This document shows positions 16,388 through 24,408 of a stretch of 33,754 nt of DNA, piece by piece. This DNA comes from an uncultured Romboutsia sp. (GTDB lineage Bacteria; Bacillota; Clostridia; Peptostreptococcales; Peptostreptococcaceae), in assembly GCA_904418825.1 (NCBI GenBank), contig CAJFPU010000009.1, positions 1 to 33,754 of the forward strand, in the 5' to 3' direction. Below the pieces are notes generated by a model. It did no database searches and was not told where the DNA came from. It saw nothing but the letters and a program-made list of their open reading frames with translations. How positions within the stretch are numbered: the first letter of the stretch is position 1; every line of letters begins with the position of its first letter. A program made the position numbers and the translations under genes.

Positions 16388-17641
16388 ATGAAATCATTTT
16401 GGAACAATTATAAGTCATCTCTAATATTATTAAGTGCAATAATATTAGGAGGAATAATAGGAGTATTTATGGGTCCAGAGGCTGTAGTATTTAAGCCAGT
16501 AGGAGATTTATTCTTAAACTTATTATTCATGACATTAGTACCATTAGTATTTTTCAGCGTTACATCAGCTATATCTAATATGGGTGAGATGAAAAGACTT
16601 GGTAAAATATTAAAGAATATAGTTATAGTATTCGCAACGACAGCAATAATATCTGGTATTATAGCTATGATAGGGGTTCTTATAATGAATCCTACAAAAG
16701 GATTAAACTCAGATATGTTTGCTAGCTTAATGGCAACTGCTACAGATCATACAAGTGGAGAAAAAGTTAGCTTATTGCAACAACTTGTAAATACTGTAAC
16801 AGTAACTGACTTTAAAGATTTATTATCAAAATCTAATATGTTACAACTTATAATATTCTCTATATTAGTAGGTATAGCAACTGCTATGGCTGGAGAAATA
16901 GCAAAACCTATAGCTAACTTTGTTGAAGCTGGAGCAGCAGTTATGATGAAGATAGTAAATATAATAATGTATATAGCACCAATAGGACTTGGATGTTATT
17001 TTGCATCAGTTATAGGTGAATTAGGACCACAAATACTTTCAGGATATGCTAAGGTATTTATATTATATCTAATATTAACAGCTATTTGTTACTTTGGATT
17101 ATTCACATTATATGCTTATGTAGCAGGTGGAAAAGATGGTGTTAAAACATTTTGGAAAAATGCTATAGCACCAACAGTTACAGCTCTAGCAACTTGTTCA
17201 AGTGCAGCATCAATACCTGTAAATTTAGACTCAACTAAAAAGATGGGTGTACCACAAGATATAGCAGAAACTGTTATACCACTTGGAGCAAATATACACA
17301 AAGATGGTTCTGTAATAGGTGGAGTTTTAAAGATAACATTCTTATTTGGACTATTTGGAAAAGATATGACAAGTTTATCAGCAATTGCTTCAATTCTTGT
17401 AGTATCATTCTTAGTTGGAGCAGTTATGGGTGCAATACCTGGTGGAGGAATGATGGGTGAAATGTTAATATTAAGTGTATATGGATTTTCACCAGAAGTA
17501 CTTCCTATAATAGCAGTTATAAGTACTATAATAGATGCACCAGCAACTGTATTAAACTCTACTGGAAATACAGTTTGTTCTATGGTAGTGTCAAGACTTG
17601 TTGAAGGTAAGGATTGGTTAAAAAATAAAATAAATAATTAA
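16388..17641 (+). CDS. Dicarboxylate/amino acid:cation symporter (DAACS/SLC1 family), substrate unclear
   Basis: The 417-residue membrane protein has the elevator-transporter pattern of GltPh: FLNLLFMTLVPLVFFSV in the N-terminal part, the serine-rich hairpin loop TCSSAASIPV, PLGANIHKDGS, GAIPGGGMMGEM and the last core helix DAPATVLNSTGN. In that helix the arginine that binds the acidic side chain in glutamate carriers (R397 of GltPh) is Ala386, and D405 is Asn394. This argues against glutamate/aspartate and for a neutral or different substrate (inference from residue positions). It is the second gene of the murE unit and is followed by a strong terminator. The link to murE may be functional or only historical. 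Confidence 0.88.
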   Translation: MKSFWNNYKSSLILLSAIILGGIIGVFMGPEAVVFKPVGDLFLNLLFMTLVPLVFFSVTSAISNMGEMKRLGKILKNIVIVFATTAIISGIIAMIGVLIMNPTKGLNSDMFASLMATATDHTSGEKVSLLQQLVNTVTVTDFKDLLSKSNMLQLIIFSILVGIATAMAGEIAKPIANFVEAGAAVMMKIVNIIMYIAPIGLGCYFASVIGELGPQILSGYAKVFILYLILTAICYFGLFTLYAYVAGGKDGVKTFWKNAIAPTVTALATCSSAASIPVNLDSTKKMGVPQDIAETVIPLGANIHKDGSVIGGVLKITFLFGLFGKDMTSLSAIASILVVSFLVGAVMGAIPGGGMMGEMLILSVYGFSPEVLPIIAVISTIIDAPATVLNSTGNTVCSMVVSRLVEGKDWLKNKINN

Positions 17642-17645
17642 TATA

Positions 17646-17674
17646 TAAGAGTGCATTTTGCACTCTTATTTTTG
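17646..17674 (+). terminator. Terminator of the murE-symporter unit
   Basis: TAAGAGTGCA (17646-17655) pairs with TGCACTCTTA (17659-17668) over a 3-base loop, followed by a T run. Confidence 0.88.
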
Positions 17675-17767: not shown

Positions 17768-19426
17768 ATGGACAAAGGGACTATATTTTTGCAATTACTT
17801 GAAAAATCCAGTTTAACGATAGTATTATTTATAATAATTACTAAAATTCAAGGGTTTAAGTATATATTTCAAAAGGAAAATTATAAACTAAAGGACTTAT
17901 TTATTATATCATTAATATTTACAGCTCTTGCCATACTTGGTACATATAATGGAATAAATGTACAAGGATCTTTAGCAAATACGAGAATAATAGCTATTGT
18001 ATCAGGTGGAGTTTTATTTGGTCCATTAGTTGGCATAACTTCAGGTATTATATCTGGTTTTCATAGATATATAACAGATATTGGCGGTATAACGGCTTTT
18101 CCGTGTTTTATATCTTCTATATTTGCAGGGTTGCTATCTGGATTTTTTTATAAAAAAATTAGTAGTAAATATAAATGGATATATGGAATAGCATGTGGAG
18201 TAATATCGGAGAGTTTTTCTATGTGTTTAATATATTTATTATCAAAACCTCACAATATTGCTATTGGAATAATAAAAAAGATTTATATACCAATGATTGT
18301 TGGTCAAATTAGTATAGGTTTTTTGATATCCATAGTTGATGCTATAAAAAAAGAAAAAGAAGAAGTAGCTGCTATGCAGTCGAAGTTAGCCTTAGATATT
18401 GCTAATAAGACATTACCTTATTTTAGATCGATAAATGAAAAGTCTTTAGAAAAAATATGCAGGATAATAAGAGATAAAATAAAATCAGATGCAGTTAGTA
18501 TAACTGATAGAAATGAAGTGTTGGCATATGTTGGAGTGGGAGAAGAAGCATTTAAATCTCCTCATACAGAAATTAGTAATATAACTAGGTGTTCTATTAG
18601 AGAAAATAAAATTTTAAATATACAAGTTAAAGAAGAAGAAAGCTCAATAAGTGAAAAAGTGAATTTAAAGACAGCTATGATTATTCCATTAATAGATTCT
18701 AAGGGAGTAATTGGAACATTAAAGATTTATTATACTAAGAAATATGATATGAGTCACTCTAAAAAATCTTTGGCTATAGGTTTATCACAAATTATTTCTA
18801 CACTTATGGAAATATCAAAAATAGAAAAGATAGAAAAAGAAAAGAAAAAAGCAGAGATCAAAGCTTTGCAAAGACAAATTAATCCACACTTTTTATTTAA
18901 TGCATTAAATACTATAACTTCATTTATTAGAATTAATCCTGATAAAGCAAGAAATCTTATTATAAATTTATCTACATATATGAGATATAATTTAGAAGTA
19001 AATGATAATTTAATAGATATAAATAAAGAATTAGAGCAAGTAAAAGCATATGTAGAAATAGAAAAAGCAAGGTTTGGAGATAAACTTACAGTTTTATATA
19101 ATATAGATGATAATATAGATGCTAAAATTCCTAGTCTTATAATACAGCCACTAGTTGAAAATGCAATAATACATGGAATAAGAAAAAATGGAGGATGTGG
19201 AACTGTAGTTATTGGAGTTAAAAAAGAAGATGGATATACTAAAGTATGGGTAGAAAATGATGGTATAACTATAGATTTTGATATAATAGAAAGAGTGTAT
19301 AGTGGGAAGATGCCTGAAAATAAAATAGGACTTTACAATGTACATCTAAGATTAAAATTAATATACGGACAAGGTTTAAATATATATAGATTAGAACCTG
19401 GAACTAGAATGGAATTTTATATATAG
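17768..19426 (+). CDS. lytS: LytS/BtsS-type sensor histidine kinase, probable pyruvate sensor
   Basis: It is a membrane sensor that phosphorylates the LytTR regulator encoded next. In 552 residues: a multi-helix 5TMR_LYT domain (about 12-195), a GAF-like domain (about 215-350), a short coiled stretch, the His-kinase block with phosphoacceptor His374 in INPHFLFNAL and an ATPase domain with PLVENAIIHGI near 457. Residues reported as needed for pyruvate binding in E. coli BtsS (R72, R99, C110, S113, recalled from the literature) have likely counterparts here: R73, R100, C113 and S116, in ANTR, HRY and PCFIS. AAGGAG precedes ATG 17768. The gap to the regulator gene is 10 bases. Lrg-type control is the alternative, but no lrgAB is present. 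Confidence 0.92.
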   Translation: MDKGTIFLQLLEKSSLTIVLFIIITKIQGFKYIFQKENYKLKDLFIISLIFTALAILGTYNGINVQGSLANTRIIAIVSGGVLFGPLVGITSGIISGFHRYITDIGGITAFPCFISSIFAGLLSGFFYKKISSKYKWIYGIACGVISESFSMCLIYLLSKPHNIAIGIIKKIYIPMIVGQISIGFLISIVDAIKKEKEEVAAMQSKLALDIANKTLPYFRSINEKSLEKICRIIRDKIKSDAVSITDRNEVLAYVGVGEEAFKSPHTEISNITRCSIRENKILNIQVKEEESSISEKVNLKTAMIIPLIDSKGVIGTLKIYYTKKYDMSHSKKSLAIGLSQIISTLMEISKIEKIEKEKKKAEIKALQRQINPHFLFNALNTITSFIRINPDKARNLIINLSTYMRYNLEVNDNLIDINKELEQVKAYVEIEKARFGDKLTVLYNIDDNIDAKIPSLIIQPLVENAIIHGIRKNGGCGTVVIGVKKEDGYTKVWVENDGITIDFDIIERVYSGKMPENKIGLYNVHLRLKLIYGQGLNIYRLEPGTRMEFYI

Positions 19427-19436
19427 GGGAGATATT

Positions 19437-20186
19437 ATGAAGGCAATTATAGTAGAAGATGAATTTCCAGCAAGAGAAGAATTAAAGTATTTTATAAAGA
19501 ATTTTAGTAAGATTGAAATACTAAATGAGTTTGATAATGGAGTAGAAGTATTAAAATTTATACAGGAAAATGTAGTAGATGTAATATTTTTAGATATAAA
19601 TATTCCATTATTAGATGGAATGCTACTTGCGAGAACTATAAATAATTTTAAGGTTAAGCCTAAAATAGTATTTATAACAGCATATAAAGAACATGCCGTA
19701 GATGCATTTGAACTAGAAGCTTTTGATTATATATTAAAGCCATACTCTGATGATAGGATAATATCTATGTTAAATAAACTAGAAAAAAGCTACTCTAGTA
19801 ATATAAGTATAGATAACAAGTTAGAAGAAGAAAAAAAGTTTGTTCAAAAATCAAAAGCTTCAAGTATTAGTTTATGGAAAAATGATAAGTTAAGAGTAGT
19901 AAATATAAAAGATATATATTACTGTGAAGCTAGAGAAAGAGAAACTATAGTATATACAAAAGATAGTGAATATATCGTAAAAGAATCTATAAAAGAATTT
20001 GAAAAAAATTTAGATACAAACCTATTTTTTAAAACACACAGGTCTTATATAGTAAATATATCCAAGATAAATGAAATAATACCTTGGTTTAATAATACGT
20101 ATAAATTAAAGTTAGATGATATAAATTCAGAAATACCTGTTAGTAGAAGTAAAATTAAAGATTTTAGAATAATTATGAACATATAA
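19437..20186 (+). CDS. lytT: LytTR-family response regulator
   Basis: The cytosolic partner of the preceding kinase. Of its 249 residues, about 1-115 form a receiver with the acidic pocket VEDE (6-9), phosphoacceptor Asp53 in FLDINIPLLDG, FITAY and the KPY lysine; about 140-245 form a LytTR DNA-binding domain (YYCEARERETIVYT, FFKTHRSYIVNI, IPVSRSKIKDFR). LytTR proteins bind direct repeats spaced two helical turns apart; such a pair, with a 21-base period, lies immediately after this gene and before cstA. GGGGAG precedes ATG 19437. No terminator is seen between it and cstA, so some read-through is possible. Confidence 0.94.
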   Translation: MKAIIVEDEFPAREELKYFIKNFSKIEILNEFDNGVEVLKFIQENVVDVIFLDINIPLLDGMLLARTINNFKVKPKIVFITAYKEHAVDAFELEAFDYILKPYSDDRIISMLNKLEKSYSSNISIDNKLEEEKKFVQKSKASSISLWKNDKLRVVNIKDIYYCEARERETIVYTKDSEYIVKESIKEFEKNLDTNLFFKTHRSYIVNISKINEIIPWFNNTYKLKLDDINSEIPVSRSKIKDFRIIMNI

Positions 20187-20221
20187 ATGCATTTAATGTA
20201 GTAAATAATGCATTTCATGTA
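20186..20221 (+). promoter_or_regulatory. Two-copy direct repeat, probable LytTR operator of cstA
   Basis: AATGCATTTAATGTA at 20186-20200 and AATGCATTTCATGTA at 20207-20221 differ at one base and are spaced 21 bases start to start, two turns of the helix. LytTR regulators bind such tandem repeats. The core GCATTTCAT is the same as 9 of 10 bases of the E. coli YpdB site (GGCATTTCAT, two copies with an 11-base gap), as I recall it. The second copy ends exactly where the -35 box would be for the TATAAT at 20245, which lacks any -35 match, as at an activator-dependent promoter. Confidence 0.7.
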
Positions 20222-20244
20222 AAAAAACTAAATTAAACACAAAA

Positions 20245-20250
20245 TATAAT
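20245..20250 (+). promoter_or_regulatory. -10 box of the cstA promoter, no -35 match
   Basis: TATAAT at 20245-20250 lies 57 bases before the cstA start. At normal spacing the -35 position (20222-20227) reads AAAAAA, so activity likely needs the regulator bound at the adjacent repeats. Confidence 0.5.
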
Positions 20251-20306
20251 GTATCATACTAAATGAAATAATAATTGATACTTAAATTAATAAAGGAGAA
20301 GACGGT

Positions 20307-21740
20307 ATGATAACATTTATATCTTGTTTAGCAATTTTAATAATTGGCTACTTTGTTTATGGAACATATGTAGATAAAAACGCAAAGTTAAGCGATGACA
20401 ATCAAACACCAGCAGTTAGATTAGAAGATGGTGTTGACTATATGCCAATGCCTTGGCATAAAGTATTTTTAATACAATTTTTAAATATAGCAGGTACAGG
20501 ACCGATATTTGGGGCAATAATGGGAGCATTATTTGGTCCAGTAGCATTTTTATGGATAACATTTGGTACAATATTTGCAGGTGGAGTACATGATTATTTA
20601 TCAGGTGTTATATCTATGAAGCATGATGGTACTTCTGTTTCTGAAATAGTTGGAATATACTTAGGTAATGGAATGAAAAATGTAATGAGAGTATTCTCTG
20701 TTATACTATTGATATTAGTTGGTACAGTTTTCGTAACATCTCCAGCAGGTTTATTGACATCTATGACAGGAGTTGATAAAAATATATGGGTTGTTTTAAT
20801 AATAATATACTATATAATTGCTACAGTTTTACCGGTAGATAAAGTTATAGGTAAAATATATCCAATATTTGGAGCATCTTTATTATTTATGGCGATAGGT
20901 TTAGCAGGAGCTATGGTAATAGGTCACTTTAATGGAAGTATGGTAATGCCTGAAATGACATTACAAAATTTACATCCAAGTGGATTATCTATATTTCCAT
21001 TCTTATTTACAACAATAGCTTGTGGAGCTTTATCAGGATTCCATGCAACTCAATCGCCTATGATGGCAAGATGTATACATAGAGAAAGTGAAAGTAAAAA
21101 AGTATTCTATGGAGCAATGGTTGTAGAAGGTATAGTTGCTTTAATATGGTGTGCAGTTACTATAGCATTCTTTGGAGAAAGTGGAGTTATTCAATCAGCT
21201 CTTGATAGCTTCGGAGGTCAATCTGGGGTTGTAGGTCATATATCTAAAGAGTTATTAGGACCAATTGGTGCAATACTTGCAGTACTTGGTGTTGTTGCTT
21301 GTCCTATAACAAGTGGAGATACAGCATTTAGAAGTGCTAGACTTACAATAGCTGATGCATTTAATATAAAGCAAGAAGGATTATTAAGTAGATTTAAATT
21401 AGCAACACCATTATTTATAGTTTGTATATTCTTAACTACTATAGACTTTAACATAATATGGAGATACTTTGCTTGGTCTAACCAAACATTAGCTACTATA
21501 TTCTTATGGACAGCAACAGTATATTTAATAAAAAATCAAGCTAATTATTGGATAACTTTATTACCTGCAACATTTATGAGTTCTGTGTGTGTGTCTTACA
21601 TATTACAAGCGCCAGAAGGATTTAGATTAAATGCTATGTTCTCTAATGGAGTAGGTGTAGTTTCTGCAGTATTATTATTTGTACTATTTATGTTAAATAA
21701 AAATAAATTTTTAAATAAAGATTCTAAAAATATAGCTTAA
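20307..21740 (+). CDS. cstA: CstA-family carbon starvation protein, probable pyruvate/small-acid transporter
   Basis: CstA/BtsT proteins are many-helix membrane transporters; BtsT of E. coli takes up pyruvate and CstA pyruvate and possibly peptides. The 477-residue protein has the family blocks FLIQFLNIAGTGPIFGAIMG, FGTIFAGGVHDYLSG, GFHATQSPMMARCI and CPITSGDTAFRSARL, and is of the short clostridial type (the E. coli proteins are about 700 residues), ending with a short charged tail. AAGGAG precedes the start. The kinase and regulator directly upstream, with operator repeats in between, mirror BtsS-BtsR control of btsT, so pyruvate uptake is the best guess; substrate is not shown by sequence alone. 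Confidence 0.9.
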   Translation: MITFISCLAILIIGYFVYGTYVDKNAKLSDDNQTPAVRLEDGVDYMPMPWHKVFLIQFLNIAGTGPIFGAIMGALFGPVAFLWITFGTIFAGGVHDYLSGVISMKHDGTSVSEIVGIYLGNGMKNVMRVFSVILLILVGTVFVTSPAGLLTSMTGVDKNIWVVLIIIYYIIATVLPVDKVIGKIYPIFGASLLFMAIGLAGAMVIGHFNGSMVMPEMTLQNLHPSGLSIFPFLFTTIACGALSGFHATQSPMMARCIHRESESKKVFYGAMVVEGIVALIWCAVTIAFFGESGVIQSALDSFGGQSGVVGHISKELLGPIGAILAVLGVVACPITSGDTAFRSARLTIADAFNIKQEGLLSRFKLATPLFIVCIFLTTIDFNIIWRYFAWSNQTLATIFLWTATVYLIKNQANYWITLLPATFMSSVCVSYILQAPEGFRLNAMFSNGVGVVSAVLLFVLFMLNKNKFLNKDSKNIA

Positions 21741-23298: not shown

Positions 23299-24408
23299 AT
23301 GTTACTTTCAATAATTTTATTTTCATCTTTAGCATTTAGCTTTATATTAAAAGGAAGTTATGAAAACATATTTATAGTTTTAGCTACAATGTCATTTTAT
23401 AAGCAAGTAATAGTAAATAAAAATTATAAAAGTTTAATTTATGGAGTTTTGATTTCATTTATTGGAGTAAACTTGGTTATATCTTTTATATTTAAAGATT
23501 ACATAGTAATAAAAGAGGTACAACCAGTGAAAGAAAAAGAAGAAACTTTAGTTTTGTTAGTATCAGAAGGTGAAAATAAAAACTATAATATAAAGGAACG
23601 TTCAACTCAAATTTACTATGAGGAAGGTTATAAAGGCATGATTACTGGAATAAGTAATTTATACAATTATAAAAGTTACTATAGTAAATTAGGATTTAGT
23701 GAATTTAAGCATAAAGCAGAAGAGATAGCAGAAAAGCTAAGACATAGCTTAGGTAACGGTTATAGAGTGGTTAATTCATATATGTACTCGAAACCTTATT
23801 TTGAATACTCAGTAGAATCAATTATAGAACAAGGATATAAAAAAATAATAATATGTCCTTTATTTATGACAGAAGGAACTGATTATGAAGTTTTTATGAA
23901 TAGATATGAACAATTAAATCTTACATCTATGAATATAGCAGATGTTGAAGTTTTAGAACCGTTTTATAATGCAAATAATTTAGCTCAACTATATAAAGAT
24001 GAAATTTTAAAAAATATAAGAAAATCAGAAGAAGATAGTGGAGTATTACTTATTGGCTTACATAATAAAAATAATTTAGAGCAAGATATTTTATTTAGAG
24101 AAAAGATAAAGAAATATATAGAAGATTCAGAAAATGATATAGATATTCAAATAAAATTACCTCTTCTAGAAAACAATAAAAAAGATATAATTAAATCAGG
24201 AGAAGAATTGTTAGAATATGGAATAAAAACTCTATATGTTGTTGCTCCAACATCTACGATAGATACCATGTATACTAGACATCTAGTAAATAGCATACTA
24301 GAAGAATTAGATATGGGAGATACTAAATTTTACTATATAGATCCACCAGATAAAATAAATACTTTAGTTGATACCCTTTATACCAAGATAATACTTATGC
24401 AAATTTAG
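23299..24408 (+). CDS. Membrane-anchored ferrochelatase-like protein of unknown role
   Basis: The 369-residue protein begins with three hydrophobic spans (about 2-17, 23-34, 46-65), followed by a soluble domain that by eye follows the whole HemH layout: YRVVNSYMYSKPYFEYSVES, QGYKKIIICPLFMTEGTDY, VEVLEPFYNANNL, LLIGLHNKNN, YGIKTLYVVAPTSTID and a final YYIDPP segment. His255 sits where the catalytic histidine of ferrochelatase (H183 in B. subtilis) lies, but the catalytic glutamate (E264) position appears to be Tyr325. The loop between spans 2 and 3 is lysine-rich, so the positive-inside rule puts the soluble domain outside the cell (inference). No heme or cobalamin gene is near. GTGAGG precedes the start. 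A CbiX-type sirohydrochlorin chelatase is the alternative; chelatase activity is doubtful. Confidence 0.7.
   Translation: MLLSIILFSSLAFSFILKGSYENIFIVLATMSFYKQVIVNKNYKSLIYGVLISFIGVNLVISFIFKDYIVIKEVQPVKEKEETLVLLVSEGENKNYNIKERSTQIYYEEGYKGMITGISNLYNYKSYYSKLGFSEFKHKAEEIAEKLRHSLGNGYRVVNSYMYSKPYFEYSVESIIEQGYKKIIICPLFMTEGTDYEVFMNRYEQLNLTSMNIADVEVLEPFYNANNLAQLYKDEILKNIRKSEEDSGVLLIGLHNKNNLEQDILFREKIKKYIEDSENDIDIQIKLPLLENNKKDIIKSGEELLEYGIKTLYVVAPTSTIDTMYTRHLVNSILEELDMGDTKFYYIDPPDKINTLVDTLYTKIILMQI

Follow-up and report, generated by a model that had tools for sequence, protein, structure and literature searches.

The tandem repeat lying between a LytTR response regulator gene and a cstA-family transporter gene is very probably the operator of this regulator, an activator of the YpdB/PyrR type, and the locus would represent a PyrSR-type system that activates cstA. 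It was found in a window of 33,754 nucleotides (the whole stretch of DNA that we have analysed) of a Romboutsia closely related to R. timonensis, whose regulator is 99% identical to that of locus L040. The assignment is built on the orthology of the regulator, the identity and spacing of the putative operator, its conservation, its co-location with cstA, also where cstA lies far from the regulator gene, and a -10 element that keeps its distance to the repeats, all of them read from sequence. The features concerned are as follows.

17768–19426, forward strand: gene for a LytS-type sensor histidine kinase, PyrS/YpdA-like (Pfam 5TM-5TMR_LYT and His_kinase)
19437–20186, forward strand: gene for a LytTR response regulator, YpdB/PyrR orthologue (Pfam Response_reg and LytTR)
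20186–20200, forward strand: operator half-site 1, AATGCATTTAATGTA, footprint kept in relatives
20207–20221, forward strand: operator half-site 2, AATGCATTTCATGTA, containing the exact GCATTTCAT, kept in relatives
20245–20250, forward strand: TATAAT, the earlier -10 proposal, at offset 35 and outside the conserved register
20252–20257, forward strand: TATCAT, a candidate -10 that keeps the conserved register, at offset 42 counted from the G of GCATTTCAT in half-site 2
20307–21740, forward strand: cstA-family transporter gene, the likely target (Pfam CstA, 1.1e-61)

In the mechanism that we propose, the LytS kinase would sense extracellular pyruvate and phosphorylate the regulator at D53. Two regulator molecules would then sit on one side of the helix, bound at half-sites spaced by 21 bp (i.e., two helical turns), and would bring RNA polymerase to a promoter with a -10 element and no -35 box. 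Once cstA is switched on, pyruvate or a related substrate may be taken up.

The two copies agree in 14 of 15 bases and start 21 bp apart, and half-site 1 overlaps with its first base the stop codon of the regulator gene (20184–20186). The sequence-only reading of this DNA had described two near-identical 15-base repeats with a 21-base period between the regulator gene and cstA, and both the repeats and their placement hold. It had also stated that the repeats contain the YpdB target sequence, which is exactly true of copy 2, while copy 1 reads GCATTTAAT. Within the window alone, the repeat is weak evidence and only mildly surprising, since the 120-bp intergenic stretch from the regulator to cstA has a G+C content of 20% and an equally similar pair of 14-mers occurs in 8 of its 400 dinucleotide shuffles. 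These shuffles are what speaks for a chance repeat in AT-rich intergenic DNA, an explanation that we regard as almost negligible, as the sequence, the 21-bp spacing, and the distances to the stop codon and to the -10 element are conserved across families. Pattern searches of the whole genome point in the same direction. Only 0.004 occurrences of the YpdB-type site GCATTTMAT-N12-GCATTTMAT are expected in the 2.31-Mb genome, and it was found once, at the window site. When up to three mismatches to GCATTTCAT-N12-GCATTTCAT are allowed, the window site shows one mismatch and all other places in the genome show three.

The reference for this comparison is the yhjX promoter of E. coli. A fragment of it to which YpdB bound in surface plasmon resonance includes GGCATTTCATTCCGTTCTGATGGCATTTCATGCC, where GGCATTTCAT occurs twice at a period of 21 bp; yhjX is activated by YpdB and is the target of the pyruvate-responsive PyrSR system (PMC4847170). 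We have located the YpdB site upstream of yhjX in the E. coli genome, and the earlier reading was right about this target: yhjX carries GGCATTTCATTCCGTTCTGATGGCATTTCAT, both in this sequence and in Table 1 of PMC4847170. The likeness in spacing claimed there also stands, the period being 21 in both cases. The window tandem matches the YpdB/PyrR operator core at 17 of 18 positions, with the first G of the 10-mer GGCATTTCAT replaced by T, and its two direct copies of a half-site variant at a 21-bp period, placed upstream of a transporter gene promoter (that of cstA, with an in-register -10), make it a putative operator of the yhjX type. The two systems have in common the half-site GCATTTCAT, its period and tandem orientation, a -10 candidate 42 bp past the last half-site, and the LytS/LytTR architecture. 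In contrast to E. coli, the target in the window is cstA and adjoins the regulator gene, and the half-sites end in GTA rather than TCC or GCC. A third, upstream half-site is a feature of E. coli yhjX, where we observed CATTCATTCC preceding the pair of half-sites already known for YpdB by 21 bp (L135).

The regulator itself shows 54% identity to E. coli YpdB (PyrR) and 30% to BtsR, with which it shares only 22% in the DNA-binding domain. In the maximum-likelihood tree, it forms one group (87/97) with YpdB and all the regulators linked to CstA or YhjX, while BtsR and other LytTR proteins fall outside. That is, a protein with receiver and LytTR domains and D53 is orthologous to YpdB and not to BtsR. 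Two other identities were considered and rejected: LytR-type (NCBIfam NF010684, 171 bits against a cut-off of 375) and BtsR-type (NF008677, 146.5 bits against 246, BtsR lying outside the clade). When aligned with AgrA, whose H169 and N201 we take to be the DNA-contact residues of the AgrA-DNA structure, the regulator has T170 and R202 at the matched positions; T170 is T in all clade members, and R202 is R in all of them except L132, which has K. The motif PWFNNTY is almost invariant in the clade, and BtsR shows V, R, and LEDNGQA at the T170, R202, and PWFNNTY positions, respectively.

Aligned with E. coli PyrS, the kinase shows 49% identity, and with BtsS 32%. The residues with which BtsS binds pyruvate are R72, R99, C110, and S113 (PMC10653868), and R73, R100, C113, and S116 of the window kinase align with all the four, the last being T in PyrS. 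This pocket, together with the 5TM-5TMR_LYT domain, makes the kinase a predicted pyruvate sensor of the LytS type. On the other hand, the window CstA belongs to the broader Pfam CstA family and scores only 105 bits against the cut-off of 1188 for the pyruvate/proton symporter (NCBIfam NF011590); with a score so far below the cut-off, pyruvate is a candidate substrate only. CstA proteins were originally described as peptide transporters (PMC12632267), and the operator might serve the window regulator in response to another small carboxylate or a peptide-derived cue, with CstA importing, e.g., peptides. We consider this unlikely, though it deserves some weight, since the kinase keeps the pyruvate contacts and yhjX, on which a pyruvate-responsive system acts, is under the control of orthologous operators.

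Other known pairs resemble the predicted pyruvate-responsive system in part. BtsS/BtsR of E. coli is a pyruvate-responsive LytS/LytTR pair which controls the CstA-family transporter gene btsT, as is predicted for the window, whereas the BtsR site, of the ACCGCTTA/ACCACTCA type in the btsT/yjiY fragment, is unrelated to that of the window (PMC4847170). S. aureus LytSR-lrgAB and B. subtilis LytST-ysbA (pftAB) are Firmicute LytS/LytTR pairs tied to pyruvate uptake (PMC12632267), with a transporter family unlike that in the window.

We have examined the region behind the regulator in relatives, at loci picked by regulator similarity and not by the motif, except for a few duplicates fetched by pattern. 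After removal of duplicate flanks, 33 cstA-linked loci, 57 yhjX-linked loci, and 26 loci without a following transporter were left, and the 120 bases 3' of each regulator stop were scored with the E. coli core alone (GCATTTCAT-N12-GCATTTCAT). The mean best match out of 18 is 15.0 for the cstA-linked loci, 14.9 for the yhjX-linked loci, and 9.3 for those without transporter, against about 10, 10, and 9 in shuffles. Taking no more than 2 of 200 equally good shuffles as significant (p<=0.01), a tandem site is found in 29/33, 46/57, and 0/26 Firmicute loci, respectively, counts which do not represent independent events as the loci are phylogenetically related. In 4 of the cstA-linked and 11 of the yhjX-linked loci, the E. 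coli motif falls below significance, being diverged or displaced. Half-site 1 mostly starts two bases past the regulator stop, in Romboutsia, Paenibacillus, and Neobacillus alike. The same period emerges without any motif: when the first 12 bases are compared with the bases at a distance d downstream, the agreement peaks at d = 21 with 8.3 (cstA) and 7.8 (yhjX) of 12, the means being 3.7 and 3.3, and no 21-bp peak appears in the 26 loci without transporter. Overall, the scan of orthologous loci, which the sequence-only reading had named as the test able to refute it, finds the site kept before cstA and yhjX across Firmicutes. In addition, 391 Clostridia genomes drawn separately yielded 18 further regulator loci from other families, with some species repeated from the earlier set; YhjX or CstA-family genes follow there, and many of these loci have recognisable, more diverged sites.

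The yhjX-linked PyrSR-like loci of Bacilli and Clostridium (L045–L118) share with the window the operator position two bases past the stop, the spacing, and the -10 distance, and differ in controlling a YhjX-type MFS transporter. Many of the Bacillaceae among them (within L047–L113) carry a cre-like box (TGAAAACGATTTC type, CcpA) over the -35 region straight after the operator, about 11–25 bp past the start of half-site 2, which suggests catabolite repression on top of the predicted pyruvate operator. Such a box is absent from the operator region of the window.

Behind the regulators without an adjacent transporter (L012, L013, L016, L017, L027, L028), no site was found on the 3' side. A site that belongs to the target gene would be expected before remote cstA genes. 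Sites matching 16 of 18 positions lie about 150–170 bp before remote cstA genes in G014, G015, and G029, where they had been predicted blind (3/3), and sites matching 17–18 of 18 lie before those in G026, G027, G028, and G030, although these latter four of the seven first came from the pattern search itself. Another match to the pattern, L039, falls within coding sequence and was put down to chance. For each of the seven promoters, none of 300 shuffles matched the observed score. In 24 control cstA promoters without the site, belonging to paralogues (about 44% identity) or to 75%-identical copies unlinked to the regulator, the scores are 10–13. One genome (G048) was considered as a natural case of a lost regulator, having a cstA without the site and no regulator found, and was rejected because 2339 of 3301 bases are masked as N. 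As this region of the congener where lytST would lie (L181, G048:C1:1987200-1990500) consists mostly of N, the absence of the regulator is not readable as loss.

The presence of the site before remote cstA genes and its absence behind regulators without an adjacent transporter also bear on whether the repeat could be a terminator of the regulator operon or some RNA element, and not a site to which a protein binds. In favour of this, half-site 1 takes the form of GCACTTTATGTGC followed by T8, which is hairpin-like, in some relatives (L076, L121). We find it very improbable for the window, as 20187–20306 holds no terminator-like site, the RNA folds no better than shuffles (z -0.87), and no Rfam match was obtained. 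As an observation apart, half-site 1 lies within GCACTTTATGTGC followed by a T run in L076, L121, L125, and L128, and may double there as a weak terminator of the regulator operon.

The promoter lies at a nearly constant distance from the protein-binding site proposed here. At regulator-linked loci, the best -10 is found 42 bp past the G of half-site 2 in the cstA group and 41 bp past it in the yhjX group, and E. coli yhjX has the candidate TATGGT at offset 42. In the remote cstA promoters, a -10-like hexamer stands at 62–63 in 6 of 7, and a weaker third half-site (5–7 of 9 positions) stands at +21 in all seven; the distance from the last half-site to the -10 is therefore again 41–42 bp. As this register is conserved, the -10 of the window is probably TATCAT, at offset 42, rather than TATAAT, at offset 35, though both hexamers are conserved within the genus. 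The earlier reading had the repeats ending exactly at the missing -35 box of TATAAT. Its arithmetic is right, since a 17-bp spacer puts the -35 position at 20222–20227 (AAAAAA), straight after copy 2; the register favours TATCAT instead, which would probably leave about 7 bp between the end of half-site 2 and the -35 position.

A LytTR operator placed ahead of a promoter that lacks a -35 box fits activation, and YpdB activates yhjX; both observations argue against a bound operator that acts as a repressor site. That the site mainly serves a different regulator might be considered as well, since the genome encodes a second LytTR protein (G000:C12). The tree places this protein (L224) in the outgroup, and we judge it quite improbable that the site is repressing or chiefly belongs to another regulator.

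With the site taken as an activator operator of the adjacent regulator, the transporter behind it is CstA in Peptostreptococcaceae and other Clostridia and YhjX in Bacilli and Clostridium. The sequence and spacing shared with the E. coli site suggest that distant bacteria use one recognition code to control different transporters. In a tree with long outgroup rows, sampled by similarity to the query, the enterobacterial branch is nested in the YhjX-linked group of Bacilli, with the enclosing branches at 100/100 and 98/84, which suggests a transfer of enterobacterial YpdAB from Bacilli. A further case comes from G030, where three 21-bp repeats stand between a second, diverged regulator (L133, at 49% identity) and the cstA that goes with it. 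These repeats, in the first 60 bases past the stop (G030:C1), are (A/G)(C/T)A(C/T)TTAGTTCC, of the CATTTAGTTCC type, the changed repeat being CATTTAGTT against the standard GCATTTCAT; AATGTATCAT of the window recurs there 41 bp past the third repeat. It looks like this operator has changed together with its regulator, in a single case. We are slightly more inclined to accept than to doubt the joint picture, in which the operator has been kept in Firmicutes with differing transporters, enterobacterial YpdAB came from Bacilli, and L133 is a natural switch of specificity.

Binding of the YpdB motif and its conservation in gamma-proteobacteria have already been published (PMC4847170, PMC5552118), the comparative study of motif conservation having looked in that class (PMC5552118). 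Our literature search, of partial coverage, yielded no account of this operator in Firmicutes or ahead of cstA, and no description of the yhjX-linked PyrSR-like loci of Bacilli and Clostridium. What appears to be new is the spread of the predicted operator in Firmicutes, the exchange of YhjX and CstA behind it, and the paralogue with a changed operator. They make it possible to look for PyrSR-type operators beyond gamma-proteobacteria by a rule drawn from sequence, predict cstA as a PyrSR-type target in gut clostridia, and supply naturally occurring regulators and operators of both the standard and the changed kind. With such a series, the DNA code of LytTR proteins, which is poorly understood, can be probed directly.

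Elsewhere in the window, a gene of the sodium:dicarboxylate symporter family (16388–17641) lies immediately 5' of the kinase gene and is followed by a terminator-like hairpin (17645–17669), and an open reading frame at 23299–24408 shows weak similarity to ferrochelatase/CbiX over part of the protein only.
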